Part shown: in pieces, positions 28,371 through 42,496 of the stretch | Numbering within the stretch: the first letter of the stretch is position 1 | How the letters are laid out: each line of letters opens with the position of its first letter | Source: Herbaspirillum seropedicae | GTDB lineage: Bacteria > Pseudomonadota > Gammaproteobacteria > Burkholderiales > Burkholderiaceae_D | DNA length: 64,000 nucleotides | NCBI RefSeq assembly: GCF_001040945.1 | Contig: NZ_CP011930.1 | Coordinates: 5,079,021-5,143,020 of the forward strand | Direction: 5' to 3' | Position numbers and translations under genes: made by a program | Notes under the pieces: generated by a model | What the model saw: only the letters and a program-made list of their open reading frames with translations | Databases searched by the model: none | What the model was told of the DNA's origin: nothing

Positions 28371-31300
28371 GCGACCTCCTCTTCCGTGTCTTCCATGACC
28401 AGCACGCACTGGCCAGCGCGCACCGGGCTGCCGGGCTGCACGCGCACCTCGGCGACAACGCCGGCTGCGGGCGCGGCGATATGGATTTCCATCTTCATCG
28501 ATTCCAGGATCATCAGCAGCTCACCCTGCGCCACGCGCTGGCCAGGACTGACCTTGACCTGCCACAGGTTGCCGGCGATGGGGGCATCGACGGCCATCTG
28601 ACCGTCCTGCAGAGGCGCGGCTTCCTGCGCGATGGCGCTGCTTTCCTCGCTCTCGTAGTTGGCCTGGCCGCTGGCGATCCAGCGCTGGCGCTCGGCATCG
28701 AAAGCGGCTTGCTGGTGCTGGCGGAAGGCGGCGATGCCGTCGGCTTCGCGCTGCAGGAAATCCTGGTAGTCCGCCAGATTCAGCTGCGTCTCTTCGATGC
28801 CGACCTCGAAGCGGCCCAAGGGGAAATCACGGCGGATGGTCTGCAATTCTTCGGCCGTGACCGGATAGAAACGGATCTGGTCGAAGAAGCGCAGCAGCCA
28901 GGGCTTGCCACGGAAGGCCGCGACTTCGCGGTAACGGTTCCACATCTGCAAGGTGCGGCCCACGAACTGGTAGCCGCCCGGCCCTTCCATGCCATAGATG
29001 CACAGGTAGGCGCCGCCGATGCCCACCGAGTTCTCGGCGGTCCAGGTGCGCGCCGGGTTGTACTTGGTGGTGACCAGGCGATGGCGCGGGTCCAGCGGCG
29101 TAGCCACCGGTGCGCCCAGGTAGACGTCGCCCAGGCCCATGACCAGGTAGCTGGCGTCGAAGACCGTCTCGCGCACCGCGCCGATATCCTTGAGGTCGTT
29201 GATGCGGCGGATGAATTCGAGATTGCTGGGACACCAGGGTGCATCCTTGCGCACAGTGGTCATATATTTCTCGATGGCGAGCTGGCAGGCCGGATCATCC
29301 CAGGACAAGGGCAGATGCACGATACGCGACGACACCGTCAGGTTTTCACTGGCGCAGACGGCGTCCCATAATCCGGCGATGGTCTGCAGCAGCGTCGGCA
29401 AGGGCAAGGCTTCCGGCTGGTAATGCACCTGCAAAGAGCGGATGCCGGGAGTCAGGTCGATCACGCCCGGCAGGGCCTGTTCTTCCAGCGCGGTGATCAG
29501 GGCATGCACGCGGAAGCGCAGCACCAGGTCCAGTTGCGGGCTGCCCACTTCCAGCAGCAGGTTGGCGTCGCCCGACAGGCGCGCCACCAGGCGTCGTTCA
29601 TCCTGGCCCAGGTCCAGCACGATGGGCGAGGCCAGCGGCGCCGGTGACCAGTCCACCGGCTGAGGCTGCAGGCTGGCCACGCCGGCTTGTGCGGCCAGGG
29701 CAATGCGGCGCGCCGTATTCACCTCCACCGGCACGAAGCGGACCTTGTCGCCGGCCTTGAGCTGGCCGATCTGCCAGAGATCGGCCTCGATCACGGTCAC
29801 CGGGCAGACGAAGCCGCCCAGGCTGGGACCATCCGGCCCCAGGATCACCGGCATGTCGCCGGTAAAGTCCACCGCGCCGACGGCATAGGGATTGTCATGG
29901 ATGTTGGAAGGATGCAGGCCCGCCTCGCCGCCGCTGTCACGCACCCATTCCGGCTTGGGGCCGATCAGGCGTACGCCGGTGCGGCTGGAATTGAAATGGA
30001 CTTCCCAGTCGGTGGCGAAGAAGGTCTCCATGTAGGCCGGCGTGAAATATTCGGGCGCACCATGCGGACCATAGATCACGCGGACCTGGCGCACTGCCTC
30101 CAGCGCGGGATACAAGGCGGCAGGCAGGGTCTGCCCGGCCTGGGTCATGGCGTCTGCGGCCAGCGGGGCGAGGTGCAGGATGTCGCCACTGGCGAGGGCG
30201 CGGCCCGCATGGCCACCGAACTGGCCCAGCGTGAAGGTGCTGCGGCTGCCCAGATAAGTCGGCACCTGCACGCCGCCGCGCACGGCCAGGTAGCTGCGCG
30301 CACCAGCCCCGCTGATGGCGCCGAGCTTGAGCGTACTGCCAGCAGCGATGTGCAGCACGGTGGCCATGGGCTGCGCCACGCCATCGAGCAGCACGGGAAT
30401 GACCGCGCCGGTGACCACCACCATGGCGGCGGTATTGAAGCGCAGGATCGGACCGCTCATGGTCACTTCCAGTCCGGCCGCCTCCTCGGCATTGCCCAGC
30501 AGGCGGTTGCCCAGACGCAGGGCGCGCTCATCCATGGGCCCCGAGGGCGGCACGCCGACGGCCCAGTAGCCGATGCGGCCAGGATGGTCCTGCACGGTGG
30601 TCTGGGTGCCGGGCGCAAGTACCTCCACCGTATCGGCGCGATAGACCAGTTGTTCCAGGCAGCGTGTCCACGGTTGTCCGCTGGCAAAGGGAACGTCGGC
30701 CAGGATCTGGCGCAGGTAGTGCTGGTTGGTTTCCACGCCATACAGCAGGGTCGCGCGCAGCGCCGCATCCAGCGCCAGGCGGGCCGCTTCGCGGGTGGGC
30801 TGCCAGCTGATCAGCTTGGCGATCATGGGATCGAAATACGGGGCGATCTCGCACCCGGCCTCGACCCAGGTATCGATGCGCAGCGCCTGGCCATCGACGG
30901 GCGGAAAATCGACCGCAGTCAGCAGGCCCGGACAGGGCTGGAACTGGCGACCCGGGTCTTCCGCATACAGGCGCGCCTGGATCGCGTGACCACGCGGTTG
31001 CAGGCCGGCTGCCAGTTGCGCCAGCGGCGGCAGGTCGCCAGCGGCCAGCTCGATCATCCAGCGCACCAGGTCGACACCCCACACTTGCTCCGTGACGCCG
31101 TGTTCCACTTGCAGACGGGTGTTGACTTCGAGGAAGTAGAACTGTCCGGCCAGGCTGTCATAGACGAACTCCACCGTGCCGGCACTGCGGTAGTTCACCG
31201 CCTTGGCCAGCTTGATGGCCGCCGCGCACAAGGCTTCCGCCATGCCATCGGGCAGGTTGGGGGCGGGGGTTTCTTCCAGCACCTTTTGATTGCGCCGCTG

Positions 31301-31990
31301 CACCGAGCAGTCACGCACACCCAATGCGATCACCTCACCCCGGCCATCCCCGAAGACCTGCACTTCCAGATGACGGGCGCGTTCGATGTATTTCTCGATG
31401 AAGACGCCGGCATCGCTGAAATTGTTCTGACCCAGGCGACGCACCGAATCGAAGGCATCGGCCAGTTCGGCATCACTGCGGCAGACGCGCATGCCGATGC
31501 CGCCGCCACCCGCGGTGCTCTTCAACATCACCGGATAGCCGACACGGGATGCAGCAGCCAGCGCATCGTCGATGCTCTCCAGCAGATCCGTGCCCTCCAG
31601 CATCGGCACGCCCTGTTCACGTGCGAGTGCGCGTGCGGTGTGCTTGAGCCCGAAGATGCGCAACTGAGCAGGCGTGGGACCGACGAAGGCGATGCCGGCA
31701 GCTTCGCAGGCTTCGGCGAAGGCGGCATTCTCGGAGAGGAAGCCATAGCCGGGATGGATGGCCTGGGCGCCGCTGTCGCGGGCGGCGGCCAGGATCTTGT
31801 CCACGGCGAGATAGGTCTGGGCGGCCGGGCCTTCGCCCAGCGAAATGGCGCGGTCGGCCTGCAGCACGTGCAGGCTGCCCAGGTCGGCTTCGGAATAGAC
31901 GCATACGCCGGTCACGTCCAGCGTGCGCAAGGTGCGCAGGATGCGACAGGCGATGGCGCCACGGTTGGCGATGAGCAGATGGTCGAACAT
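28367..31990 (-). CDS. uca: Urea carboxylase family, probable guanidine carboxylase
   Basis: 1207 residues. Domain order: biotin carboxylase/ATP-grasp (1-~450; MFDHLLIANRGAIACRILRT, KSTAGGGGIGMRVC, EVNTRLQVEHGVTEQ), KipA/AHS2-like (~460-780), KipI/AHS1-like (~800-1030) and a biotinyl domain whose Lys1166 lies in ESMKMEI. This is the urea amidolyase carboxylase part without the hydrolase. Family members next to the two DUF1989 subunits and under guanidine-I riboswitches have been shown to carboxylate guanidine in preference to urea. That context, including the leader at 35182-35315, is present here. It overlaps atzF downstream and follows the DUF1989 gene by ~110 bases. Confidence 0.93.
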   Translation of the reverse strand: MFDHLLIANRGAIACRILRTLRTLDVTGVCVYSEADLGSLHVLQADRAISLGEGPAAQTYLAVDKILAAARDSGAQAIHPGYGFLSENAAFAEACEAAGIAFVGPTPAQLRIFGLKHTARALAREQGVPMLEGTDLLESIDDALAAASRVGYPVMLKSTAGGGGIGMRVCRSDAELADAFDSVRRLGQNNFSDAGVFIEKYIERARHLEVQVFGDGRGEVIALGVRDCSVQRRNQKVLEETPAPNLPDGMAEALCAAAIKLAKAVNYRSAGTVEFVYDSLAGQFYFLEVNTRLQVEHGVTEQVWGVDLVRWMIELAAGDLPPLAQLAAGLQPRGHAIQARLYAEDPGRQFQPCPGLLTAVDFPPVDGQALRIDTWVEAGCEIAPYFDPMIAKLISWQPTREAARLALDAALRATLLYGVETNQHYLRQILADVPFASGQPWTRCLEQLVYRADTVEVLAPGTQTTVQDHPGRIGYWAVGVPPSGPMDERALRLGNRLLGNAEEAAGLEVTMSGPILRFNTAAMVVVTGAVIPVLLDGVAQPMATVLHIAAGSTLKLGAISGAGARSYLAVRGGVQVPTYLGSRSTFTLGQFGGHAGRALASGDILHLAPLAADAMTQAGQTLPAALYPALEAVRQVRVIYGPHGAPEYFTPAYMETFFATDWEVHFNSSRTGVRLIGPKPEWVRDSGGEAGLHPSNIHDNPYAVGAVDFTGDMPVILGPDGPSLGGFVCPVTVIEADLWQIGQLKAGDKVRFVPVEVNTARRIALAAQAGVASLQPQPVDWSPAPLASPIVLDLGQDERRLVARLSGDANLLLEVGSPQLDLVLRFRVHALITALEEQALPGVIDLTPGIRSLQVHYQPEALPLPTLLQTIAGLWDAVCASENLTVSSRIVHLPLSWDDPACQLAIEKYMTTVRKDAPWCPSNLEFIRRINDLKDIGAVRETVFDASYLVMGLGDVYLGAPVATPLDPRHRLVTTKYNPARTWTAENSVGIGGAYLCIYGMEGPGGYQFVGRTLQMWNRYREVAAFRGKPWLLRFFDQIRFYPVTAEELQTIRRDFPLGRFEVGIEETQLNLADYQDFLQREADGIAAFRQHQQAAFDAERQRWIASGQANYESEESSAIAQEAAPLQDGQMAVDAPIAGNLWQVKVSPGQRVAQGELLMILESMKMEIHIAAPAAGVVAEVRVQPGSPVRAGQCVLVMEDTEEEVA

Positions 31991-32099
31991 TCAAGTGGCC
32001 TAGAAATCCGGGTCGTCCCGTGATTCGGAAAACCGGCTCGCGGTCGTCCGCGAGGGGTGCAGGGCTAGGTGCAGGGCTGCGTACGGGCAAGCAGCGGGC

Positions 32100-32735
32100 T
32101 TAGTCCCACACCAGCACTTCGGCGGCGGTGGGGTTCCAGCCGTTGCAGGGGTTGTTCAGCTGCGGGCAGTTGGAGATCAATACGATCAGGTCCTGCTCGG
32201 CGCACAGCTCCACGTACTTGCCGGCGGCGGAGATGCCGTCCTCGAAGGTGAGACCGCCCTCGGGCGTGACCGGTACGTTCATGAAGAAGTTGATGTTGGC
32301 GCCGATGTCGCGCTTGTTGAGGCGGCCATCATGCAGGCAGGCGCACAGGAAGTTGTCGCGGCAGCTGTGCATGTAGCGCTTCTCCAGCGCATAGCGCACC
32401 GTGTTGCTCTCTTGCGCGCAGGCCCCGCCCAAGGTGTCATGACGGCCGCAGGTGTCGGCCACGATGGTGGCCAGTGCACGCCCCAGGTTGGAATACAGCA
32501 CGCTGCCCGCGCCCAGGTAGGCGCGGTTCTGGCGGCGCAGCGTGCGCTGGGGATCGTAGCGCTCACGCGGATTGGCGGCGCTGTAGAAGAGCGTATCGAT
32601 GGCCTGGTTGCCTTCCAGGTCCAGCAGGCGCACGGTCTGCCCGGCGCTGAGGTTGAAGAGATAGGGTTCGCCCGCCGGGATCACGTGACGGAACACGGCT
32701 TGTTCGGGGGCGCGCTGGCTTTCGATGATGTGCAT
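32100..32735 (-). CDS. DUF1989 protein, carboxyguanidine deiminase subunit (smaller)
   Basis: 211 residues of the urea-amidolyase-associated/DUF1989 family: GEPYLFNLSAGQTVRLLDLE, GNQAIDTLFYSA, CGRHDTLGGAC, INFFMNVPVTPEGGLTFEDG and LISNCPQLNNPCNGWNPT. Cys and His residues in these motifs fit a metal site. In guanidine-degrading bacteria a pair of such proteins (CgdA/CgdB) forms a heteromeric carboxyguanidine deiminase yielding allophanate and ammonium. It is 15 bases downstream of its larger partner and upstream of the carboxylase. The earlier name, urea carboxylase-associated protein, reflects the same context. Confidence 0.9.
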   Translation of the reverse strand: MHIIESQRAPEQAVFRHVIPAGEPYLFNLSAGQTVRLLDLEGNQAIDTLFYSAANPRERYDPQRTLRRQNRAYLGAGSVLYSNLGRALATIVADTCGRHDTLGGACAQESNTVRYALEKRYMHSCRDNFLCACLHDGRLNKRDIGANINFFMNVPVTPEGGLTFEDGISAAGKYVELCAEQDLIVLISNCPQLNNPCNGWNPTAAEVLVWD

Positions 32736-32750
32736 GAGATTCTCCCTGGC

Positions 32751-33482
32751 TCAGAGATGGAAGCGTTCGGTGTTATGGAAGGCGCGCGCGTTCTCGGGGC
32801 GCGCATGGCGGCAGGCATGGGTGCTGTCGTCGCTGTGCGTCTGCAGCCATTCCAGCCGGACCGGACGCGGCGCATAGTGCGGATGCGGGTCCATGGGATG
32901 CTGCAGGGCCGTCAGGATGATGAGCGTGTCCATCGGCGCGGCCAGCTCGAGGTAGTCTCCTGATTTGGAATTGCCGGGCACGAAGTGGAAGACGCCTTCG
33001 GCATCCACCTCCACGCGCGAGAACAGGTTCACCACCATCAGCAGGTCTTGCAGGTCGAGGTTCCACTTGCCCATTTCCACCAGCAGGTTGTCCACGCCAT
33101 TGCGATAGAAACCGTTGCGCAATTCCTGGTAGCGGCCCTGGCCGTATTTCTCGCGCACTTCCTCGGCATTGAGCACGCCGCCGAAGCTGTCATGCCAGCC
33201 GCAGGTATCGTCGGTGATGGCGGCCAGCACGCGGCCCATGTCGGAGTACAGGCAATGCCCGGCCTGCAGGCGCGCGGTGTGCTGGCCCTTGAGGGTGTCG
33301 GGCAGGTTCAGCCGTTCGCTGGGTTGCTGGGCGTTCAGCATCATCATGCTGACGTTGGCGCTGCCTTCGATGTCGGTGATGCGCAGCGACTGGCCGCGCT
33401 TGAGGATGAAGGAGGTATGGCCGCCGCCGGGCAGCACTTCTTCGTAGAGTCTGGCTTGCAGGGCCAGGGGATCCTTGCTCAT
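32751..33482 (-). CDS. DUF1989 protein, carboxyguanidine deiminase subunit (larger)
   Basis: 243 residues, same family as the next gene: GGGHTSFILKRGQSLRITDI, GSANVSMMMLNAQQPSERLN, DDTCGWHDSFGGVL, NLFSRVEVDAEG and ALQHPMDPHPHYAPRPVRLE. Together with the 211-residue protein it should form the carboxyguanidine deiminase that turns carboxyguanidine into allophanate. The ATG at 33482 lies one base after the stop of the ABC ATPase gene, with AGGAAA upstream. An in-frame upstream start at 33581 lies in the ATPase gene and is rejected. Confidence 0.9.
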   Translation of the reverse strand: MSKDPLALQARLYEEVLPGGGHTSFILKRGQSLRITDIEGSANVSMMMLNAQQPSERLNLPDTLKGQHTARLQAGHCLYSDMGRVLAAITDDTCGWHDSFGGVLNAEEVREKYGQGRYQELRNGFYRNGVDNLLVEMGKWNLDLQDLLMVVNLFSRVEVDAEGVFHFVPGNSKSGDYLELAAPMDTLIILTALQHPMDPHPHYAPRPVRLEWLQTHSDDSTHACRHARPENARAFHNTERFHL

Positions 33483-33483
33483 G

Positions 33484-34260
33484 TCAGCTTTCCTTTGCAG
33501 TGATGAGGGAGGCCAGCTTGCCGGCCTGTTCGCGGGCGCGGGCCTCGTTGAGGGCGATGTCGTAGGTGATGTGGGCGCCATAGGCTTGCGGGTATTGCGG
33601 GTCGACGCGCACCTTGTCGAAGACCAGCAAGCGGGTGCCGAGGGTGAAGCCTTCGGAGAGGTCGTGGGTGACCATGAAGACGGTCAGGCCGCTGTCCTTC
33701 CACAGGTCCAGCAGCAGGGTGTGCATCTCCTTGCGGATGCCCGGATCGAGCGCACCGAAAGGTTCATCCAGCAGCAGCACGCGGGGACGCACGATGAGCG
33801 CCTGGGCAATCGCCAGGCGCTGCTGCATGCCGCCCGAGAGGCTGCTGGGATACAGCTCCAGCGCATGCCCGAGGCCCACGCGATGCAACAGCTGCGCCGC
33901 CTCCTCCCGTGCGCGCCGCTTGGTGCCGCCGAACAGGCGGCCCAGCAGCGCAGAGCGCGGCAGCTCCAGGCCGATGGCCACGTTGTCTAGCACGTTCAGG
34001 TGCGGGAACACGGAGTAGCGCTGGAACACCACGCCACGCGTGGCGTCGGGCTCGGCGGGAAAGGGCTGGCCTTGCAGCAGCAGTTGGCCCTTGCTGGGAC
34101 GCTCCTGCCCCAGCAGCAGGCGCAGGAAGGTCGACTTGCCACAGCCGGAAGCGCCCACCAGGGTGCAGAACTGGCCCTCTTCCACGCGCAGGTTCAGGCG
34201 TTCCAGCACCACGTTCTGGTCGTATTGCTGCCAGACGTTGCGGATCTCGATATAGCTCAT
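33484..34260 (-). CDS. ABC transporter ATP-binding protein (guanidine uptake)
   Basis: 258 residues of the nitrate/sulfonate/taurine-type (SsuB/TauB) ATPases. Walker A is GASGCGKST (36-44), the signature LSGGMQQRLAIAQAL, Walker B VLLLDEPFGALD and the switch VTHDLSEG. It energises the permease encoded just upstream (ATGA overlap at 34257-34260). Such transporters are regular members of guanidine-I riboswitch operons next to carboxylase and DUF1989 genes, so guanidine or a related compound is the likely substrate. Confidence 0.93.
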   Translation of the reverse strand: MSYIEIRNVWQQYDQNVVLERLNLRVEEGQFCTLVGASGCGKSTFLRLLLGQERPSKGQLLLQGQPFPAEPDATRGVVFQRYSVFPHLNVLDNVAIGLELPRSALLGRLFGGTKRRAREEAAQLLHRVGLGHALELYPSSLSGGMQQRLAIAQALIVRPRVLLLDEPFGALDPGIRKEMHTLLLDLWKDSGLTVFMVTHDLSEGFTLGTRLLVFDKVRVDPQYPQAYGAHITYDIALNEARAREQAGKLASLITAKES

Positions 34261-35072
34261 GCGCGGCCTCCTTCGGCCCAGGGGAAGAAGCGCCGGTGCA
34301 CGGCGCGCAGCAGCCAGTCCATCAGCCAGGCCAGCAGGGTGATCCAGACCACGTAGGGCAGGATCACGTCCATGGCCAGATAGCGGCGCACGAGGAAGAT
34401 GCGATAGCCGAGCCCCGCCGTGGCCGAGATCGCTTCTGCGGAAATGAGGAACAGCCAGGCCGCACCCAGCGACAGCCGCAGCGAGACCAGCAGGCGCGCC
34501 AGCATCTGCGGCAGCGCCACGCGCAGTACCACGGTCCAGCTGTTGGCGCCCAGCGTCTGGGCCTTGATCAGCAGTTCGGCGGGAATGGCGCGGCCCGTGT
34601 GTTCCAGGTCGCGCGCCAGCAAGGGCGTGACGCCGATGACGATGAGCATCACCTTGGACAATTCATCGAGTCCCATGACGATGAACAGAATCGGCAGGAT
34701 CGCCAGCGGCGGCACCATGGACATCACCGTCAGCAGCGGCGAGAAGCCGGCGCGCAATACCGGGAAGACCCCATTGACGATGCCCAGCACCAGCCCGGCC
34801 AGCGCGGCGATGCCCAGGCCCAGCAAGACCCGCTGCAGGCTGGCCAGCGTATCGGCCCAGAACAGGTAGTCGCCGGTGCGCGGGTCTTCCATGAAGGCCA
34901 TGTGGCGCACCGCATCGACCATCTGCATGAGGCTGGGCAAGAGCTTGTCATTGGGATTGTCGGCCAGGCGCGTGGCCGAGCCGACGGCATAGAGCAGGGC
35001 CAGGATGAGGAAGGGCAGCAGCGTGAGCAGCCATTGCCCGGAGCGGCCCGGATGGCGATTCAGGAAACGCAT
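34257..35072 (-). CDS. ABC transporter permease (guanidine uptake)
   Basis: 271 residues with about six membrane helices and the permease EAA-type loop (RVALPQMLARLLVSLRLSLG). The pattern (LASLQRVLLGLGIAALAGLV, SMVPPLAILPILFIVMGLDE, AEAISATAGLGYRIF) is that of SsuC/TauC/NrtB permeases. The ATG at 35072 has GGGAGG seven bases upstream. A longer frame to 35186 would run into the terminator of the riboswitch and is rejected. It is the first gene of the minus-strand guanidine operon; the binding protein is encoded divergently at 36156. Confidence 0.92.
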   Translation of the reverse strand: MRFLNRHPGRSGQWLLTLLPFLILALLYAVGSATRLADNPNDKLLPSLMQMVDAVRHMAFMEDPRTGDYLFWADTLASLQRVLLGLGIAALAGLVLGIVNGVFPVLRAGFSPLLTVMSMVPPLAILPILFIVMGLDELSKVMLIVIGVTPLLARDLEHTGRAIPAELLIKAQTLGANSWTVVLRVALPQMLARLLVSLRLSLGAAWLFLISAEAISATAGLGYRIFLVRRYLAMDVILPYVVWITLLAWLMDWLLRAVHRRFFPWAEGGRA

Positions 35073-35181
35073 GACGCGCCTCCCTGCGGCACTGACCGGG
35101 ACGGGAACGGAGGCAGCACAGCGGCTGCCGGATGGGACCTGGGGAGATGAACAGCGATCACGGGTAACTCCGGTCGGGTTG

Positions 35182-35315
35182 AACAAAAGCAGGAGCAGCG
35201 CAGCACCTGTGGTGCAACTCTCTCCCGGGCTTTTGTCCCGCCGTGTAACCTCGACCGAGGTCGCCGGCTCTCGGACCAGTCATCTGCCTGCGGCAGACCG
35301 GAACCCTAGCCAGCT
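35182..35315 (-). promoter_or_regulatory. Guanidine-I (ykkC) riboswitch with terminator, minus strand
   Basis: Read on the minus strand, the leader contains the guanidine-I signature in order: CTAGGGTTCCG (35299-35309), GGTCCGAGAG (about 35268-35277), a GACCTCGGTCGAGGT hairpin, ACACGGCGGGA (35236-35246), then AAAGCCCGGGAG (35222-35233). The last part can pair with CTCCTGCTTTTG just downstream to give a terminator ending near 35182, about 110 bases before the permease ATG. In this class guanidine binding stabilises the aptamer and prevents terminator formation, so the operon is switched on by guanidine. Confidence 0.9.
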
Positions 35316-35379
35316 ATTTGAACTTCCTGCGCAGCCATCGGATCAGCGATGCGGGCTGCTCTGCATGTCAGTGGATTTC

Positions 35380-35395
35380 AGCAAATTCCATACCA
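35380..35395 (-). promoter_or_regulatory. Sigma-54 promoter of the minus-strand guanidine operon
   Basis: TGGTATGGAATTTGCT on the minus strand fits the -24/-12 consensus TGGCACG-N4-TTGCW, with invariant GG and GC exactly 10 bases apart. The predicted start site near 35369 is about 55 bases before the riboswitch aptamer. Read by eye. Confidence 0.65.
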
Positions 35396-35548
35396 TCATC
35401 GCCCGCGCAGCCAGCGCAAGGCATAGCCCAAGGTTTCGATGAGCAGCAGCGAGCTGCGCATGCGGCCGCACAGCGGCAGCGCCTGTGCGAGCTCATTGGA
35501 AAAGGCGATGGGGAAAACGGCAGCGTCGCTTGATCGGGTCATGGGCAT
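35396..35548 (-). CDS. Possible 50-residue small protein between the two guanidine leaders
   Basis: A short frame begins MPMTRSSDAAVF with CAGGAG five to six bases upstream and ends ...GYALRWLRGR, its TGA abutting the -24 element of the sigma-54 promoter. It has an amphipathic/hydrophobic C-terminal half and a basic end. It is below usual gene-calling size and I recognise no family. It may be only a chance frame in a control region. Confidence 0.25.
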   Translation of the reverse strand: MPMTRSSDAAVFPIAFSNELAQALPLCGRMRSSLLLIETLGYALRWLRGR

Positions 35549-35843
35549 GGTCTACTCCTGCGAACATGGCCTGGCCGTCCAGGGATGGTTGTCGAGGCCG
35601 CACTCACTTCCTGTACTCCTGTGCGCTCGACCCAAGTCGTCTTGGCTCGCCCTATGCGAGAACGACAATCTTGCATGCAAGTTCCAGGCCAAGCCGTCGC
35701 GCACTTGCACGCAGGGCGCAAACCCGCTCCAGTACTGGGCCGTAGACAATCGCGCAGCAAGCCGTGGACAAGCCGAGCGCAAGCATGGTGCAGGCCGGCA
35801 CCGATTTGGCGCGCCGCTGCTGCGCCAGCATCGTTCATGTCCG

Positions 35844-35858
35844 GCACGTCGAACGTGC
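35844..35858. promoter_or_regulatory. NtrC-like binding site between the divergent guanidine operons
   Basis: GCACGTCGAACGTGC is a perfect inverted repeat and matches the GCAC-N7-GTGC pattern of NtrC sites. It lies 68 bases upstream of the plus-strand -24 element and about 450 bases upstream of the minus-strand one, in the space enhancer-binding proteins use. Other palindromes nearby (CTTGCATGCAAG at 35670-35681, GGTGC...GCACC at 35787-35802, GCTATTAATAGC at 35872-35883) are unassigned. Confidence 0.5.
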
Positions 35859-35924
35859 TTCCGACAGGCTTGCTATTAATAGCGAAATCCGCACTCGCGC
35901 ATCGCGCCGGCCTCGCCACGGGAT

Positions 35925-35940
35925 TGGCATGAACCTTGCT
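35925..35940 (+). promoter_or_regulatory. Sigma-54 promoter of the plus-strand guanidine operon
   Basis: TGGCATGAACCTTGCT matches TGGCACG-N4-TTGCW in nearly every position, with GG at 35926-35927 and GC at 35938-35939 exactly 10 bases apart. The predicted start is near 35951, about 45 bases before the aptamer. An NtrC-like palindrome lies upstream. Confidence 0.75.
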
Positions 35941-35993
35941 GAAAAGCGAGTGGGAGCCGGTGATACCGGTCTTGTGTAAGCACAATTTGCAAT

Positions 35994-36127
35994 GGACAGC
36001 TAGGGTTCCGGTTCGCTGTTGCGGATGTCTGGTCCGAGAGCAGTCGACCTCGCAAGAGGTTACACGGCGGGAGAAAAGCCCGGGAGATGACGCGTTCGCA
36101 AGGACCGCGCCGCTCCCGGGCTTTTTT
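35994..36127 (+). promoter_or_regulatory. Guanidine-I (ykkC) riboswitch with intrinsic terminator, plus strand
   Basis: In order: AGCTAGGGTTCCG (from 35998), GGTCCGAGAG (36031-36040), a GACCTCGCAAGAGGT hairpin, ACACGGCGGGA (36062-36072) and AAAGCCCGGGAGA. GCCCGGGAG (36078-36086) pairs perfectly with CTCCCGGGC (36113-36121), followed by six T (36122-36127), a textbook intrinsic terminator. Guanidine binding should sequester the 5-prime strand of the terminator and permit read-through into the binding-protein gene at 36156. It is homologous to the leader on the other strand. Confidence 0.93.
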
Positions 36128-36155
36128 CCAATAAACCCTTCGAGGACCCTACGCC

Positions 36156-37232
36156 GTGTACAACATTTCCCGAATCCTTGGTGGCGCCGCCATCGCCCTG
36201 GCCGCCTTCGCGGGCGCGCTTTCCTCCGCCCACGCCGCACCCCGCACCGACTTCAAGGTCTGCACCTCCATCTACGCCGGCTGGATGCCCTGGGGCGAAG
36301 CCCAGGCCCAGGGCATCCTGGCCAAGTGGGGCAAGAAGTACGGCATCACCATCAACGCCGTGCAGTTGAACGACTACGTCGAATCGATCAACCAGTACAC
36401 CGCCGGCAAGTTCGACGGCTGCACCATGACCAACATGGATGCGCTGACCATTCCCGCTGCCGGTGGCGTGGATTCCACGGCCCTGATCGTGGGCGACTAT
36501 TCCAATGGCAACGATGGCATCGTCCTGAAGGGGAAGAACAAGAAGCTGGCCGACATCAAGGGCCAGTCGGTGCAGCTGGTGGAATTCTCGGTCTCGCACT
36601 ACCTGCTGGCGCGCGCGCTGGAAACAGCCGGCCTGCGCGAGCGTGACGTCAAGGTGGTCAACACCAGCGACGCCGACATCACCGCCGCCTTCGCCACGCC
36701 TGCCGTCACCAGCACGGTGACCTGGAACCCGATGCTGTCCTCGATTGCGGCCTCGCCCGATGTCTCGCTGGTCTATACCTCCAAGCAGCTGCCCGGCGAG
36801 ATCATGGACCTGATGGTGGTCAACACCAAGACCCTGCAGGAGAACCCCGCCTTCGGCAAGGCATTGACCGGCGCGTGGTACGAGATGATGGCCATCATGA
36901 GCGCCAAGGATGAACGCGCCACCCGTGCGCTCACCGCCATGGGCAAGGCTTCCGGCACGGACCTCGCCGGCTTCCAGGCGCAGCTGGCGGCCACGGCCAT
37001 GTTCTACCAGCCCAAGGCGGCGCTGGAGTTCGCGACCAAGAAGGAACTGCCCGGCATCATGGGGCGCATCGCCAAGTTCAGCTTTGACCACGGCATCCTC
37101 GGCCCCAACGTCAAGAGCGCCGACGGCATCGGCATCGCCTTCGACGGCAACGTGGTGATCGGCGACAAGAAGAACGTCAAGCTGCGCTTTGATCCGGCCT
37201 ACATGAAGATGGCGGCCGATGGAAAACTCTAA
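36156..37232 (+). CDS. ABC transporter substrate-binding protein (guanidine/urea-carboxylase-associated)
   Basis: 358 residues with a signal peptide ending SSAHA-AP near residue 28. The mature protein is an NMT1/TauA/SsuA-type binding protein (FKVCTSIYAGWMPWGEAQAQ, TMTNMDALTIPAAGGVDSTA, VTSTVTWNPMLSSI) of the subgroup found with urea/guanidine carboxylases. The start is GTG at 36156 with GAGGA at 36142-36146. It is the first gene after the plus-strand riboswitch and completes the ABC transporter whose permease and ATPase are encoded divergently. The ligand is inferred from context. Confidence 0.92.
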   Translation: MYNISRILGGAAIALAAFAGALSSAHAAPRTDFKVCTSIYAGWMPWGEAQAQGILAKWGKKYGITINAVQLNDYVESINQYTAGKFDGCTMTNMDALTIPAAGGVDSTALIVGDYSNGNDGIVLKGKNKKLADIKGQSVQLVEFSVSHYLLARALETAGLRERDVKVVNTSDADITAAFATPAVTSTVTWNPMLSSIAASPDVSLVYTSKQLPGEIMDLMVVNTKTLQENPAFGKALTGAWYEMMAIMSAKDERATRALTAMGKASGTDLAGFQAQLAATAMFYQPKAALEFATKKELPGIMGRIAKFSFDHGILGPNVKSADGIGIAFDGNVVIGDKKNVKLRFDPAYMKMAADGKL

Positions 37233-37381: not shown

Positions 37382-38302
37382 TTGACTACCTACACCGCTT
37401 CCCTGTCGCGCCTCGGCGCCTTCAGCGCCACCCTTGCCGCCCTGCTGGCCTGCGCCCCAGCGCTGGCCGAGGACGCCCCCGCCGCCGCGCCCGCCGGTCC
37501 CTGGACCATCACCAAGCACATCGACCTGGCCTCGCGCTACGTGCTGCGCGGCGTCACCACCACCTATGGCAATGGGCAGCCGCTGGGCAACAGCGGCGCC
37601 GACGCGCCCGAATCGGACCAGCCCGCGCTGCAATGGGGCATCGACTTCGTCCACAGCAGCGGCTGGAGCTTTGGCTACTGGGCCTCGACCATCAACTATT
37701 CGTACAAGCAGCTGGGCAATTCCTACAGTGACCGCAGCATCACCGAATTCCAGAAACCGCGTTCGGTGGAAAACGATCTCTACTTCGCCTACGCCGGCAA
37801 CATCAGCGGCGACCTCGGCTATACCCTGGGCATGACCGGCTACTACTATCTCAACGGCAGCCATGCCAATGCGCTGGAGACCAAGGCGGGCCTGACCTGG
37901 GGCGCGCTGTCCTTGAACGCCCAGACCCTGCTCAACGACGTGGTCTGGGGCAACAAGGGCGACACCTACTGGACCCTGGCCTACACCAAGCCGCTGCCCT
38001 ATGACATCACCTTCACCGGCACCCTGGGCGCCTATACCTACAAGCGCGAAGGCAAGTACCTCGGCACCCGCGATACCGCCACGGGAACAGCCTGCGGCGC
38101 GGGACAGGCGTTCGCGGTCAATGGCTGCTTTGCCGGCAACGGTCCCAGCAGCGGCGGCCTGCGCCACCTGACGCTGGGCCTGTCGGCGCCCTTCCCCAAC
38201 TCGCCCATCACCTGGTCGCTGCAGGCCATCCTGGGCGGCTACAACCGCTTTGACGTCAAGCAGGGCAATCAGCTGGTGGGGATGTTGAGCTGGGGCTTCT
38301 GA
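37382..38302 (+). CDS. TorF-family putative porin
   Basis: 306 residues. A signal peptide (ATLAALLACAPALA-ED) precedes a beta-rich outer-membrane protein of the TorF/gcw_chp family: ITKHIDLASRYVLRGVTTTY (the typical S-x-Y-x-x-RG opening), WGIDFVHSSGWSFGYWAS, and a C-terminal strand ending MLSWGF with terminal Phe. The start is TTG at 37382 with GGAGAG upstream. It follows the binding-protein gene by 150 bases on the same strand, so it may provide outer-membrane entry for guanidine. A hairpin follows at 38325. Confidence 0.85.
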   Translation: MTTYTASLSRLGAFSATLAALLACAPALAEDAPAAAPAGPWTITKHIDLASRYVLRGVTTTYGNGQPLGNSGADAPESDQPALQWGIDFVHSSGWSFGYWASTINYSYKQLGNSYSDRSITEFQKPRSVENDLYFAYAGNISGDLGYTLGMTGYYYLNGSHANALETKAGLTWGALSLNAQTLLNDVVWGNKGDTYWTLAYTKPLPYDITFTGTLGAYTYKREGKYLGTRDTATGTACGAGQAFAVNGCFAGNGPSSGGLRHLTLGLSAPFPNSPITWSLQAILGGYNRFDVKQGNQLVGMLSWGF

Positions 38303-38357: not shown

Positions 38358-38497
38358 TCGTCGGCGCGTCAGACATTTCCGACAGCAAAAGCGCAGGATC
38401 ACTGATCCCCCCTCCGCTTCAGCACGCGCATGATGGCGCAGCCGTGAGTCAGGCAAGGCCTTGCTCACGCTCCGGATTTCCTCCAAGGAAACGCGCC

Positions 38498-39205
38498 ATG
38501 AAAAAAATAAGCATCTCCCCCGATCGCCGCCGTTTCCTGCGCGGCGCGCTCACCGCCGCACCAGTTGCCGCGCTGGCCGTGACCGCCGGCAGCCTCACGG
38601 CCAAGGCCGAGGGACCATCCCCCGACCAGCCTTACCAGCCAAGCTTCTTCAACCGCGACGAATTCGCCCTGCTCAGCGCCCTGGCCGACACCCTCATCCC
38701 GGCGGACGACACCGGTCCCGGCGCGCTGCAGGCAGGGGTGCCGGAATTCATCGACGCCCAGATGAACACACCCTATGGGCAGGGCCAGCTGTGGTACATG
38801 CAAGGCCCCTTCACGCCCGACGCGCCCCCTGAATTCGGCTACCAGCTGCCCTATCCGCCACGCGAGCTGTACAAGAAGGGCCTGGCCGAATTCGATGCGG
38901 CCATCCGCCAGCAGTACGGACATGGCTATGTGGAACTCAATACCCAGCAGCGCGAAAAGATGATGGCCGAGTTCGAAAAGGGCGAGCAGGGCAGCCTGAA
39001 GATGGCCACCATCCCGCCCTCGGCGCTGTTCAACCTGCTGCTGCAGAACGTCCACGAAGGCTATTTCTGCGATCCCACCGACGGCGGCAACAGGGGCATG
39101 GGATCGTGGAAGATGATCGGCTTCCCTGGCGCACGGGCCGACTACTACGACTGGGTCGACCAATACGGCAAATCCTATCCGCTGCCGCCGATCTCGCGCG
39201 GCTGA
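38498..39205 (+). CDS. Gluconate 2-dehydrogenase gamma-type subunit, Tat signal
   Basis: 235 residues. The N-terminus DRRRFLRGALTAAPVAALAV is a twin-arginine signal, and the mature part is the gluconate_2-dh3 domain: NRDEFALLSALADTLIPADD, FIDAQM, and SWKMIGFPGARADYYDWVDQ at the C-terminus. In FAD-dependent membrane dehydrogenases this small subunit is needed for folding and Tat export of the flavoprotein, which has no signal of its own. AAGGAAA precedes the ATG. It is first in a three-gene operon. Confidence 0.92.
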   Translation: MKKISISPDRRRFLRGALTAAPVAALAVTAGSLTAKAEGPSPDQPYQPSFFNRDEFALLSALADTLIPADDTGPGALQAGVPEFIDAQMNTPYGQGQLWYMQGPFTPDAPPEFGYQLPYPPRELYKKGLAEFDAAIRQQYGHGYVELNTQQREKMMAEFEKGEQGSLKMATIPPSALFNLLLQNVHEGYFCDPTDGGNRGMGSWKMIGFPGARADYYDWVDQYGKSYPLPPISRG

Positions 39206-39255
39206 CCTGGGTCGCCGCCCTCCCCTGCACTGCCCAACCGAGAAAGACCAAGCCC

Positions 39256-41037
39256 ATGGCCAACAAGAACATGAAGCCCGTCGATGTCGTCATCGTCGGC
39301 TTCGGCTGGACCGGCGCCATCATGGCCAAGGAAATGACCGAGGCCGGCCAGCGCGTGGTGGCGCTGGAACGCGGCGTCTATCGCGATACCTATCCGGACG
39401 GCGCCTATCCCAAGACCATCAATGAGCTGGAATACCAGCAGCGCTTCAAGCTGTTCCAGAACCTCAACAAATCCTCCTTCACCTTCCGCCGCAAGACCGG
39501 CGACAGCGCCATCCCCTATCGCCAGATCGCCATGTTCAAACCCGGCGAAGGGGTGGGTGGCGCGGGGCTGCACTGGTCGGGCTGCCATTGGCGCATCCTG
39601 CCCGAGGAACTGCGCATGCGCAGTCATTACGAAGAACGCTACGGCAAGAATTTCATCCCCAAGGACATGACCCTGCAGGACTGGGGTGTGAGCTACGAAG
39701 AACTGGAACCCTACTTCGATTTCGCCGAAAAGATGATGGGCACCTCCGGTACCGCCTATCGGGTCGGCGGCAAGGTGGTCGATGAAAGCGGCAATCCCTT
39801 CGAGGCCGACCGCTCCGATAACTTCCCGCTGCCGGCGCAGAAGGAGCAATACCAGGCGGCGCTGTTCCGCAAGGCGGCGCAACAGGCGGGCTTGCATCCA
39901 TTCACCCTGCCCTCGGCCAATGCCGCCGCGCCCTATGTGAACCAGTACGGTTGCCAGATGGGGCCCTGCACCTTCTGCGGCTTCTGCTCCGGCTATGCCT
40001 GCTACAACTATTCCAAGGCTTCGCCGAACGTGAACATCATGCCGGCGCTGCGGCAGAGCAATCTGTTCGAGCTGCGCAGCAGCTGCAATGTGCTGCGCAT
40101 CGAACTGGACAGCAGCCGCAAGAAGGCCACCGGCGTGACCTATGTGGACATCAACGGCGACACCGTCTTCCAGCCGGCCAGCATTGTCATCGCCAGCACC
40201 TTTGCCTACAACAATGCGCGGCTGTTCCTGCTCTCCGGCATCGGCAAGCCCTATGACCCGGTCAGCAATACCGGCGCGGTGGGGCGCAATATCGCCTTCC
40301 AGATGATGTCCACCATCAATGCCTTCTTCGAGCCGGGCAAGAACATCAATGGCTTCATCGGCGCAGGCGGCAATGGCGTGGCCGTCGATGATTTCAATGG
40401 CGACCATATGGACCATGGCCCGCTGGGCTTCGTGGGCGGCTCGCCGATCTGGTGCAATCCGTCCGGGTCCAAGCCGATCTCCGGCATTGCGGTGCCCAGC
40501 GGCACGCCCAGGTGGGGGCGCGCCTGGAAGCAGGCCGTCAAGGACAGCTATCTCAACACCATGTCCTTCGATGTGCATGGGGCCAACATGGTCTATCGCG
40601 ATGTCTATGTCGATCTCGATCCCAACTACAAGGACGCCTTCGGCCAGCCGCTACTGCGTTTCACCTTCGACTGGAAGGACAACGATATCCGCATGAGCCG
40701 CTATGTCACCGACCAGGCGGTGAAGATCGCGCATGAACTGAAGGCCAGGGAAATCAAGGTCACCGTCAAGGACTTCGGCGCTGCGCCCGACCTGCGCAGC
40801 TACCAGACCACGCACTGGGCCGGCGGCGTGGCCATGGGCACGGACCCGTCCACCAGCGTGGTCAACCGTTACCTGCAGAGCTGGGATGTACACAATGTCT
40901 TTGCGGTCGGCTCGGGCGTATTCGCCCAAGGCATCGGCTACAACCCGACCGGCGCGGCGGTGGCCCTGACCTACTGGTCGGCGCGCGCCATCCGTGAGCA
41001 GTACCTCAACGACCCGCGACCGCTGGTGCAGGCCTGA
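39256..41037 (+). CDS. GMC-family flavoprotein subunit of gluconate/sugar-acid dehydrogenase
   Basis: 593 residues. The FAD motif VVIVGFGWTGAIMAKEM is at about 9-25, GEGVGGAGLHWSGCHWR follows, and a Cys-rich cluster CTFCGFCSGYACYNY (near 240) probably binds the 3Fe-4S cluster seen in this dehydrogenase group. The C-terminal HWAGGVAMGTDPSTSVVN and GSGVFAQGIGYNPTGA contain the GMC His/Asn active-site region. The enzyme oxidises gluconate, 2-ketogluconate or a similar aldonic acid in the periplasm and passes electrons to the cytochrome subunit. It lies between the Tat chaperone-like and cytochrome subunits. Confidence 0.92.
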   Translation: MANKNMKPVDVVIVGFGWTGAIMAKEMTEAGQRVVALERGVYRDTYPDGAYPKTINELEYQQRFKLFQNLNKSSFTFRRKTGDSAIPYRQIAMFKPGEGVGGAGLHWSGCHWRILPEELRMRSHYEERYGKNFIPKDMTLQDWGVSYEELEPYFDFAEKMMGTSGTAYRVGGKVVDESGNPFEADRSDNFPLPAQKEQYQAALFRKAAQQAGLHPFTLPSANAAAPYVNQYGCQMGPCTFCGFCSGYACYNYSKASPNVNIMPALRQSNLFELRSSCNVLRIELDSSRKKATGVTYVDINGDTVFQPASIVIASTFAYNNARLFLLSGIGKPYDPVSNTGAVGRNIAFQMMSTINAFFEPGKNINGFIGAGGNGVAVDDFNGDHMDHGPLGFVGGSPIWCNPSGSKPISGIAVPSGTPRWGRAWKQAVKDSYLNTMSFDVHGANMVYRDVYVDLDPNYKDAFGQPLLRFTFDWKDNDIRMSRYVTDQAVKIAHELKAREIKVTVKDFGAAPDLRSYQTTHWAGGVAMGTDPSTSVVNRYLQSWDVHNVFAVGSGVFAQGIGYNPTGAAVALTYWSARAIREQYLNDPRPLVQA

Positions 41038-41050
41038 ACCGGGGACGATG

Positions 41051-42496
41051 ATGAAACCACTGATCCTCATCCCGTCGCTGTTGCTGACTGCCGCGCTGGC
41101 CGGCGCCGCCGCTTTCCCGCTGGCCTTGGCCGAGCCTTCGCTGAGCGTGCCGATCCCGCCGCAACCGCCGGTGGGCGCGCGCCTGCTCAACCGCGAGATC
41201 AAGCCCCTGCGCCCGCACGCCACCCCGGCAGCCGACACCGCGCTAGCGCAGCGCATCGCCGCCCAGGGCAGCGCCAGCGCAGAAGACCAGCAGATCCTGC
41301 GCGGCGCCTACCTGGCGCGCGCCGGGGATTGCGTGGCCTGCCATACCAGCAAGGGCGGCGCGCCCTTCGCGGGCGGGCTGGCGCTGGCCTCGCCCATCGG
41401 CGCCATCTATTCCACCAACATCACGCCTGACAAGCAGCACGGCATCGGCGACTGGAGCTACGAGGACTTCGCCCGCCTCATGCGCACCGGCGTCACCAAG
41501 GCCGGCTACACGGTCTATCCGGCCATGCCCTATCCGTCCTACTCGCGCCTGACCGACGAGGACATGCAGGCGCTCTATGCCTACTTCAGCAAGGCGGTGC
41601 CGCCCTCGGCGCAGGAAAACCGCGCCAATGACATCCCCTGGCCGCTGTCGATGCGCTGGCCGCTGGCGCTCTGGCGCAAGGTCTTTGCGCCCACCCCGGC
41701 CCCCTACACGCCGGCCGCCGGCAGTGACCAGGAACTGGCGCGCGGCGCCTATCTGGTCGAAGGGCTGGGACACTGCGGCAGCTGCCATTCACCGCGCGCG
41801 GTGACGATGCAGGAAAAGGCGCTCAAGGAAGACGGCGGCAGGCTGTTCCTCTCCGGCGGGCAGGTGGTCGATGGCTGGAGCGTGCCCTCGCTGCGCAATG
41901 AGCATGGCGGCGGCATCGCCGGCTGGAGCCAGGCCGACCTGGTGGAATTCCTGCGCACGGGTCGCAACCAGTACACCGCTTCCTTTGGCGCCATGAACGA
42001 CGTCATCGAGGATTCCATGCAATACATGAGCGATGCCGATCTCAACGCCATGGCGCGCTATCTGCTGAGCCTGCCGCCGCGCCAGCAGGCCGCGCCCTAC
42101 CGCTACGATTCCGCCACCGCCCAGGCCGCCTACGATGGCCGCCCCGATGGGCCGGGTGCGCGCATCTATCTCGATCGCTGCGCGGCCTGCCATCGCAGCA
42201 ATGGCACTGGCTACGGCAAGGCCTTCCCGGCGCTGGCCGGCAATCCGGTGCTGCAGACCAGCGACGCCACCTCGGCCATCCGCATCATCCTGCAGGGCGG
42301 ACGCCAGCCCTCCACCGCCTCGGCCACCGCCGGCCTGGTGATGGCGCCCTATGCGCAACTGCTCGATGACCAGCAGGTGGCGGAGGTGACTTCCTATATC
42401 CAGACCGCCTGGGGCAACCGCGGCGGGACCACCACGGCGGCGGAGGTGGCAAAGGTCCGCAAGACCGCCGTGCCCGTTGCAGAGCGGGCGCCATGA
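41051..42496 (+). CDS. Triheme cytochrome c subunit of gluconate/sugar-acid dehydrogenase
   Basis: 481 residues. A hydrophobic signal segment (LILIPSLLLTAALAGAAA) precedes three cytochrome c domains with CVACH (94-98), CGSCH (242-246) and CAACH (377-381) heme motifs and Met axial-ligand candidates. It is the size of the membrane-bound alcohol/gluconate dehydrogenase cytochrome subunit, which delivers electrons to ubiquinone. The ATG at 41051 is preferred over the adjacent 41048 because GGGGA is then five bases away. It lies 14 bases after the flavoprotein gene. Confidence 0.92.
   Translation: MKPLILIPSLLLTAALAGAAAFPLALAEPSLSVPIPPQPPVGARLLNREIKPLRPHATPAADTALAQRIAAQGSASAEDQQILRGAYLARAGDCVACHTSKGGAPFAGGLALASPIGAIYSTNITPDKQHGIGDWSYEDFARLMRTGVTKAGYTVYPAMPYPSYSRLTDEDMQALYAYFSKAVPPSAQENRANDIPWPLSMRWPLALWRKVFAPTPAPYTPAAGSDQELARGAYLVEGLGHCGSCHSPRAVTMQEKALKEDGGRLFLSGGQVVDGWSVPSLRNEHGGGIAGWSQADLVEFLRTGRNQYTASFGAMNDVIEDSMQYMSDADLNAMARYLLSLPPRQQAAPYRYDSATAQAAYDGRPDGPGARIYLDRCAACHRSNGTGYGKAFPALAGNPVLQTSDATSAIRIILQGGRQPSTASATAGLVMAPYAQLLDDQQVAEVTSYIQTAWGNRGGTTTAAEVAKVRKTAVPVAERAP

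Follow-up and report, generated by a model that had tools for sequence, protein, structure and literature searches.

The window, a stretch of 64,000 nucleotides (nt) within the 5.51-Mb single-contig genome of the plant-associated bacterium Herbaspirillum seropedicae, contains an intergenic region in which two guanidine-I (ykkC-type) riboswitch aptamers lie on opposite strands, each with a sigma-54-type -24/-12 element upstream and each preceding guanidine genes (TIGR03427, permease, ATPase, TIGR03425, TIGR03424, TIGR02712, and TIGR02713). The initial annotation had proposed such a divergent pair from motifs shared by the two aptamers; the quoted motifs are present in the sequence, and an Rfam search returned RF00442 on both strands rather than on one or neither, each match exceeding the gathering score of 63. 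These are the only RF00442 matches in the whole genome at an E value of 0.001 or better. The features of the two leaders are as follows.

35220-35320, - strand: guanidine-I aptamer before the permease, ATPase, deiminase, and carboxylase genes (RF00442, 96.7 bits, full length 1-107)
35989-36088, + strand: guanidine-I aptamer upstream of the gene for the substrate-binding protein (RF00442 over its full length, 1-107; 91.1 bits)
35181-35238, - strand: hairpin of terminator type that shares the 3' strand of the - aptamer; its stem is interrupted and its T tract reads TTTTGTT
36070-36129, + strand: hairpin of terminator type that shares the 3' strand of the + aptamer; a near-perfect stem (GCCCGGGAG...CTCCCGGGC) leads into TTTTTT
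35924-35940, + strand: sigma-54 -24/-12 element TTGGCATGAACCTTGCT, predicted +1 at 35951 (19.5 of a possible 20.7 bits)
35380-35396, - strand: sigma-54 -24/-12 element ATGGTATGGAATTTGCT, predicted +1 at 35369 (15.4 bits)

The terminator stem said to overlap each aptamer is clear on the + strand, where the predicted fold of 36070-36130 reaches -43.3 kcal/mol, whereas its - strand counterpart (35176-35240, -31.1 kcal/mol) is weaker in form. As predicted by folding, the layout on both strands is that of an ON switch working by antitermination, and what is known of the guanidine-I class suggests that guanidine would be the signal that turns it on.

A TGG-N10-GC element had been described upstream of each aptamer and was found at both, and the predicted starts at 35951 and 35369 were reproduced when the GC was counted as -13/-12; the aptamers begin 38 and 49 nt past these putative starts, respectively. 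TTGGCATGAACCTTGCT is the top-scoring sigma-54 site in the 64 kb, where seven sites on the two strands reach at least 13 bits, three of them within this intergenic region. Across nine genomes (the window and eight relatives), 16 of the 17 columns of each element are invariant, and chance is excluded mainly because of this conservation and because the arrangement recurs across Pseudomonadota. The genome carries rpoN (PF04552 at G000:C1:4554822-4555289, E value of 2.2e-66).

Genes downstream of the two leaders

The following genes and one further riboswitch lie behind the leaders. Published work is cited here by PubMed Central identifier.

34257-35186, - strand: ATP-binding cassette (ABC) permease open reading frame (ORF) as listed (PF00528)
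33484-34260, - strand: ABC transporter ATPase (profile matches)
32751-33482, - strand: UAAP1, carboxyguanidine deiminase subunit (TIGR03425, 317.6 bits)
32100-32735, - strand: UAAP2, carboxyguanidine deiminase subunit (TIGR03424, 309.4 bits)
32008-32055, - strand: guanidine-II riboswitch within the operon, 5' of the carboxylase gene (RF01068, 37.1 bits; gathering score, 32)
28367-31990, - strand: urea/guanidine carboxylase (TIGR02712, 1856.2 bits)
26955-28409, - strand: allophanate hydrolase ORF, 484 amino acids (aa) (TIGR02713, 571.9 bits)
36156-37232, + strand: guanidine ABC transporter substrate-binding protein, annotated "urea" (TIGR03427, 538.9 bits)
37382-38302, + strand: TorF-family porin (TIGR02001)

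The - strand leader is thus followed by permease, ATPase, UAAP1, UAAP2, carboxylase, and allophanate hydrolase genes and the + strand leader by the TIGR03427 binding protein and then the TorF-type porin. The true start of the permease is probably the ATG at 35072 rather than the start of the listed ORF. UAAP1 and UAAP2 both belong to family PF09347, whose members have been described as carboxyguanidine deiminase subunits (PMC11410670). The binding protein shares 97% identity with that of Herbaspirillum sp. ASV7 (locus L255; L and G numbers denote loci and genomes of our collection). Because the porin is 54% identical to one from another family of the order (L102) that directly follows its own sigma-54/guanidine-I leader, the comparison suggests that it may serve as an outer-membrane entry route for guanidine and form part of the + strand unit. 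The genes 3' of the porin (38444 to 42496, + strand) encode a gluconate 2-dehydrogenase-type subunit 3, a GMC oxidoreductase, and a cytochrome c.

Sigma-54 elements and NtrC-type dyads across Pseudomonadota

Genomes with a guanidine-I match were found at every rank searched: 13 of 34 in the genus, 25 of 245 in the family, 44 of 349 in the order, 29 of 369 in the class, and 43 of 398 in the phylum, the sets overlapping. After the removal of 8 of 213 rows as spurious pattern matches and of six places below the gathering score, 205 aptamers were analyzed, and all but two, which had less than 120 nt of upstream sequence, were scored for sigma-54 elements. An element of at least 12 bits precedes 176 of these 203 aptamers (108/123 in the order, 60/66 in the rest of the class, and 8/14 in the rest of the phylum) and occurs in 65 of the 78 genera that have a guanidine-I aptamer. 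Its position is also regular: 154 of 168 elements in the order and class sit 40 to 95 nt before the aptamer core, and all eight outside the class sit 15 to 30 nt before it.

The same threshold was reached in 2.1% of cases when the order set was shuffled by dinucleotides, in 6 of 124 of its reverse-strand sequences, and in 12 of 122 stretches taken farther upstream; 8 of these 12 are a third site, described below, that this genome has in common with its relatives. Upstream of thiamine pyrophosphate (TPP) riboswitches of such genomes (loci from 30 genomes, two of which lacked flank or were set aside; of the 28 scored, five, L201 to L205, are below the TPP gathering score), none of the 28 had an element, the maximum being 7.3 bits. 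A stricter rule built on the printed consensus GGcacg-N4-ttGC (PMC5491218), namely, GG-N10-GC with at least five of six further matches within 120 nt, was satisfied by 116 of 203 aptamers and by 0.76% of shuffles.

Among named relatives, taken as the best 80 of 554 by binding protein and hence a list of close kin, a pattern search found the aptamer in 80 of 80 loci, with 88 of 90 aptamers preceded by an element of at least 12 bits and the remaining two scoring 11.7; Rfam returned guanidine-I in all 19 of the 80 loci checked. Of eight plasmid loci picked from 235 records, five hold guanidine-I and three gave no match; the element precedes five of the six plasmid aptamers, the positives being two from Pantoea, two from a single duplicated stretch in Serratia, and one from Rhizobium. 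The Serratia case is a conjugative plasmid of Serratia proteamaculans (L336) in which the duplicated sigma-54/guanidine-I leader, at 1197 to 1295 and 2266 to 2364, precedes a guanidine import operon.

Further products were seen behind such leaders. A TonB-dependent receptor directly follows the leader in L043 (2 to 1441, -) and, by reading, in L114, as does the TorF-type porin in L102 (505 to 1389, -); these are candidate guanidine entry proteins. Elsewhere, a xylose-isomerase-like TIM barrel protein (L120, 613 to 1452, -), an EamA transporter (L025, 1735 to 2670, +), and a further NMT1-type binding protein (L033, 430 to 1449, -) are encoded behind sigma-54/guanidine-I leaders, and their products may handle other guanidino compounds.

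Upstream of the + strand promoter element, a row of NtrC-type dyads and a palindrome were located, none of them assigned a strand.

35776-35792: NtrC-type dyad 1, AGCGCAAGCATGGTGCA (score of 18 of 22; 12/17 columns invariant in nine genomes)
35797-35813: NtrC-type dyad 2, GGCACCGATTTGGCGCG (17 of 22; 16/17 columns invariant in nine genomes)
35821-35837: weaker dyad match 3 (17 of 22; 10/17 columns invariant)
35843-35859: weaker dyad match 4 (16 of 22; 0/17 columns invariant)
35872-35883: palindrome GCTATTAATAGC between the dyads and the + strand promoter

The four dyad-like sites are spaced 21 to 24 bp apart and lie 100 to 167 bp before the + strand start; within the palindrome, an 11-base run, CTATTAATAGC (35873 to 35883), is invariant across the nine genomes. 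A survey of the 220-nt stretches that precede 171 sigma-54 elements identified dyads close to TGCACCA-N3-TGGTGCA, scoring at least 18, in 62 regions versus 1.5 expected and exact GCAC-N7-GTGC cores in 38 versus 1.6 expected. A dyad score of at least 17 was reached in 106 of the 171 regions, compared with 3 of 28 TPP regions and 5 of the 27 guanidine-I aptamers that lack a sigma-54 element. NifA was also considered as the activator and rejected: its TGT-N10-ACA pattern occurs at chance (5/171 versus 5.9 expected) and is absent from 35330 to 35960. Because NtrC-type dyads are enriched upstream of these promoters while NifA-type sites are at chance, the motif counts make NtrC the likely activator. 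COG3665 is taken here to comprise UAAP-type genes. COG3665 genes are among predicted sigma-54 targets (PMC12316311), and the gene for "urea carboxylase" and adjoining ABC transporter and aminomethyltransferase genes belong to the NtrC regulon of Burkholderia cenocepacia (PMC5491218). NtrC of H. seropedicae itself has been described in print (PMC5648810), where NtrC sites at nifA are cited as a reference.

The remaining 27 of the 203 aptamers, all below 12 bits, are not uniform. Six (two in G333 and one each in G383, G592, G599, and G1136) keep GG-N10-GC at the usual distance, and two come from genomes without rpoN (G1174 and G1261). Two others precede a small multidrug resistance (SMR) exporter gene, the protein having been tested for G039 and the assignment in G123 following from the same upstream site and frame layout. 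Nine more lie in eight genomes of one genus in which an amino-acid-type permease replaces the ABC importer, as judged from two tested proteins and otherwise from frame length, with one of the nine aptamers preceding the carboxylase gene. Ammonia monooxygenase was found in six of the eight genomes of this genus versus 0 of 10 other genomes, and rpoN is present in all 10 genomes of the exporter and ammonia-oxidizer group. Betaproteobacterial ammonia oxidizers have been reported to combine an APC permease with the carboxylase pathway, and the strains tested converted guanidine just partly and with ammonium present (PMC11410670). Guanidine may serve the ammonia-oxidizer genus as a source of energy, in which case a nitrogen gate would have no place there, and the exceptions at both the exporter and the ammonia-oxidizer loci fit the view that such gating would make little sense there.

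A possible third arm between the two leaders

The stretch between the two leaders holds another set of conserved features, all on the - strand. The initial annotation mentioned neither these nor the guanidine-II switch at 32008 to 32055.

35676-35692, - strand: TTGGCCTGGAACTTGCA, a sigma-54-like element and the third of the region (15.8 bits; predicted +1 at 35665), lying 5' of a small ORF
35632-35645, - strand: hairpin CCAAG-ACGA-CUUGG, the first of a guanidine-II-like pair (9/9 genomes)
35570-35583, - strand: hairpin CCUGG-ACGG-CCAGG, the second of the pair (9/9 genomes; 10 nt 5' of AGGAG)
35396-35548, - strand: small ORF of 50 codons with an AGGAG ribosome binding site, conserved and ending at the - strand promoter

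The GG and GC of the third site are kept in all nine genomes, with scores ranging from 10.9 to 16.4. Both hairpins are identical in the nine genomes, with a linker of 38 to 48 nt. Two hairpins with ACGR loops define the guanidine-II class. No second pair of perfect 5-bp ACGR hairpins was found elsewhere in the window or in 60 shuffles, and in a looser scan of both strands of the collected loci (2.75 Mb), every match was either this element or a guanidine-II-type pair of a guanidine locus. Because the architecture is that of guanidine-II while RF01068 scores only 9.4 bits over 35620 to 35648, below the gathering score of 32, the pair is labeled guanidine-II-like on its sequence and is not counted as a member of the family. 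Rfam applied to 35330 to 35980 at E values up to 5 gave one chance-level match (Esr41, 17 bits versus a gathering score of 102).

In the small ORF, variable columns numbered 29, 19, and 40 of 48 at codon positions 1, 2, and 3, the third thus being the most variable, and pN/pS ranged from 0.26 to 0.69; the substitution pattern points to a modest coding signal. A tblastn search over the collected loci detected relatives in the Herbaspirillum set only, the best match outside it having an E value of 0.047, and the product has no Pfam match. Covariation was considered as support for a helix in the leader of the small ORF, but a helix position with both of its bases changed, and that in no more than two genomes, does not suffice for a claim.

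The third-arm block is present in 10 of 34 genomes of the genus, all within the 13 that have the guanidine-I locus. The hairpin pair was also sought by pattern in 294 genomes of the family; the four matches all lie in the guanidine locus, under a gap limit of 50 that left out genomes with longer linkers, that of the window among them. The tenth block, from Oxalobacteraceae bacterium CAVE-383 (L256, 390 to 2434, -), has two hairpins nearly identical to these that follow a sigma-54 site of 16.8 bits, here preceding the gene for a 322-aa protein without a Pfam or NCBIfam match and then the gene for biotin synthase BioB. Carboxylases of the urea/guanidine type need biotin, and a biotin gene under guanidine and nitrogen control would for this reason make sense; it is possible that the CAVE-383 arm provides such a controlled biotin supply for the carboxylase.

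A two-key reading and its alternatives

We consider it probable that two keys control the use of guanidine as a nitrogen source at this region. When nitrogen runs short, phosphorylated NtrC would occupy the dyads at about 35776 to 35837 and, by looping, activate sigma-54 RNA polymerase at both starts, 35951 on the + strand and 35369 on the - strand. Transcription would pass directly into the guanidine-I aptamer on either strand, and with guanidine absent, the overlapping hairpin would stop transcription. With guanidine present, the + strand transcript would reach the binding protein and porin genes and the - strand transcript the permease, ATPase, deiminase, and carboxylase genes, the guanidine-II switch within the - strand operon providing an extra check before the carboxylase. 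The arrangement suggests that cells consume guanidine solely when guanidine is present and nitrogen is short. The AND gate of nitrogen limitation and guanidine proposed in the initial annotation gains support, at the level of sequence, from the 176 of 203 aptamers behind sigma-54 elements, from the NtrC dyads, and from the absence of the element at exporter and ammonia-oxidizer loci; from these features we infer that the promoters are active, that NtrC activates them, that the RNAs bind guanidine, and that the two inputs act as an AND gate, perhaps a strict one.

Several observations weigh against it. Eight of the 27 aptamers without an element match none of the exceptions above, although their genomes have rpoN. 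Six of them, in G716, G898, G960, G1286, G987, and G1303, go with import or deiminase genes; the one in G1041 goes with an arginase-family gene, and the eighth is one of the two aptamers of G1044. The Sinorhizobium fredii plasmid aptamer likewise has no element. The - strand terminator is imperfect in form, and a script detected no T tract ahead of the gene in 113 of 205 loci, leaving termination there unsupported, a count that, given the crudeness of the script, is no proof of translational control; the same script found a strong hairpin overlapping the aptamer in 58 of 205 loci. The fourth dyad is not conserved, and the dyads lie some 400 to 470 bp from the - strand start at 35369, which is far for an enhancer, the third site being nearer. 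Finally, both the sigma-54 model and the NtrC model approximate a consensus.

The sigma-54 promoters might be real but respond to another enhancer-binding protein, such as NifA or a regulator of the guanidine cluster, in which case the first key would not be general nitrogen shortage. Sigma-54 elements do not name their activator, and H. seropedicae is a diazotroph (PMC7011215); however, the chance-level count of NifA-type sites, the excess of exact NtrC cores, and the homologous genes in the B. cenocepacia NtrC regulon make this unlikely. Less probable still, and in our view very unlikely, is that the promoters are ordinary sigma-70 promoters with idle sigma-54 motifs, leaving guanidine as the sole decider. 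The exporter, ammonia-oxidizer, and eight further aptamers lacking the element indicate that the switch needs none. Against this reading, the motif keeps its preferred distance in 65 of the 78 genera, and none was found before 28 TPP switches of such genomes.

It is also conceivable that the aptamers are guanidine-I by fold only and sense another ligand, such as phosphoribosyl pyrophosphate (PRPP) or ppGpp, so that the second key would not be guanidine. Other ligands are indeed known for ykkC-type RNAs, and a single change can shift specificity (PMC6031431). The full-length RF00442 matches far above the gathering score, the adjoining genes of the guanidine carboxylase pathway (reviewed in PMC12186494), and the guanidine-II switch in the same - strand operon nevertheless render this explanation highly improbable. 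Control by NtrC/sigma-54 together with guanidine is the reading retained below.

The riboswitch class, the genes, and this very pair of RNAs are known. Hsnc110 and Hsnc116, ykkC-yxkD RNAs (RF00442) of H. seropedicae SmR1, are 101 and 100 nt long, equal in length to the pair in the window, and were listed as predicted small RNAs preceding HSERO_RS22365 and RS22370 (PMC7011215); sigma54, NtrC, and RpoN do not occur in the text of that paper. Raoultella terrigena and Klebsiella michiganensis have the same aptamer classes and genes, with class I followed by class II as in the window (PMC12186494), but in the window the binding protein gene is separated from the others and transcribed divergently, and each of the two leaders stands behind a sigma-54 element. 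The words sigma, NtrC, and "nitrogen limit" are absent from the text of that review. The B. cenocepacia NtrC regulon (PMC5491218) and the predicted sigma-54 targets (PMC12316311) include genes for alternative nitrogen sources, the former sharing urea carboxylase and its ABC transporter gene with the locus and the latter the COG3665 genes; the word guanidine is absent from both texts, and riboswitch is absent from PMC5491218 and appears a single time, within a reference, in PMC12316311. No paper linking a guanidine riboswitch to sigma-54, RpoN, or NtrC was found among the open-licence PubMed Central papers listed, at most 20 to 30 per search, and no guanidine genes under nitrogen starvation were found by term in PMC10532344 and PMC5748707; PMC12421884 deals with a ppGpp reporter. 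What the locus adds to the known switch is the probable sigma-54/NtrC coupling, a second key at the level of the promoter. In the tandem PRPP-aptamer logic gates of ykkC relatives, two inputs likewise decide one transcript; there, both inputs are RNA aptamers, whereas in the window one input is a promoter with its activator (PMC5912903).

Taken together, we lean slightly toward a broader reading in which the guanidine-I aptamers of Pseudomonadota are, as a rule, the second half of an NtrC/sigma-54 two-key device, and the type of promoter tells whether guanidine is nitrogen food (element present) or poison or fuel (element absent). The third arm of Herbaspirillum would add to this a sigma-54-like promoter, a guanidine-II-like switch, and a new 50-residue protein, and that of a relative would precede the 322-aa protein and the biotin synthase that makes the cofactor of the carboxylase.

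Why bacteria sense guanidine, as a toxin or as a nutrient, is a question still raised by a 2025 review (PMC12186494). A sigma-54 element before guanidine-I in most genera, missing at the exporter and in the ammonia-oxidizer genus, would allow the nutrient role to be read from a genome. If the two-key reading is true, induction assays in ammonium-rich medium would understate these switches, and the locus would represent a natural two-input gate with one DNA key and one RNA key.

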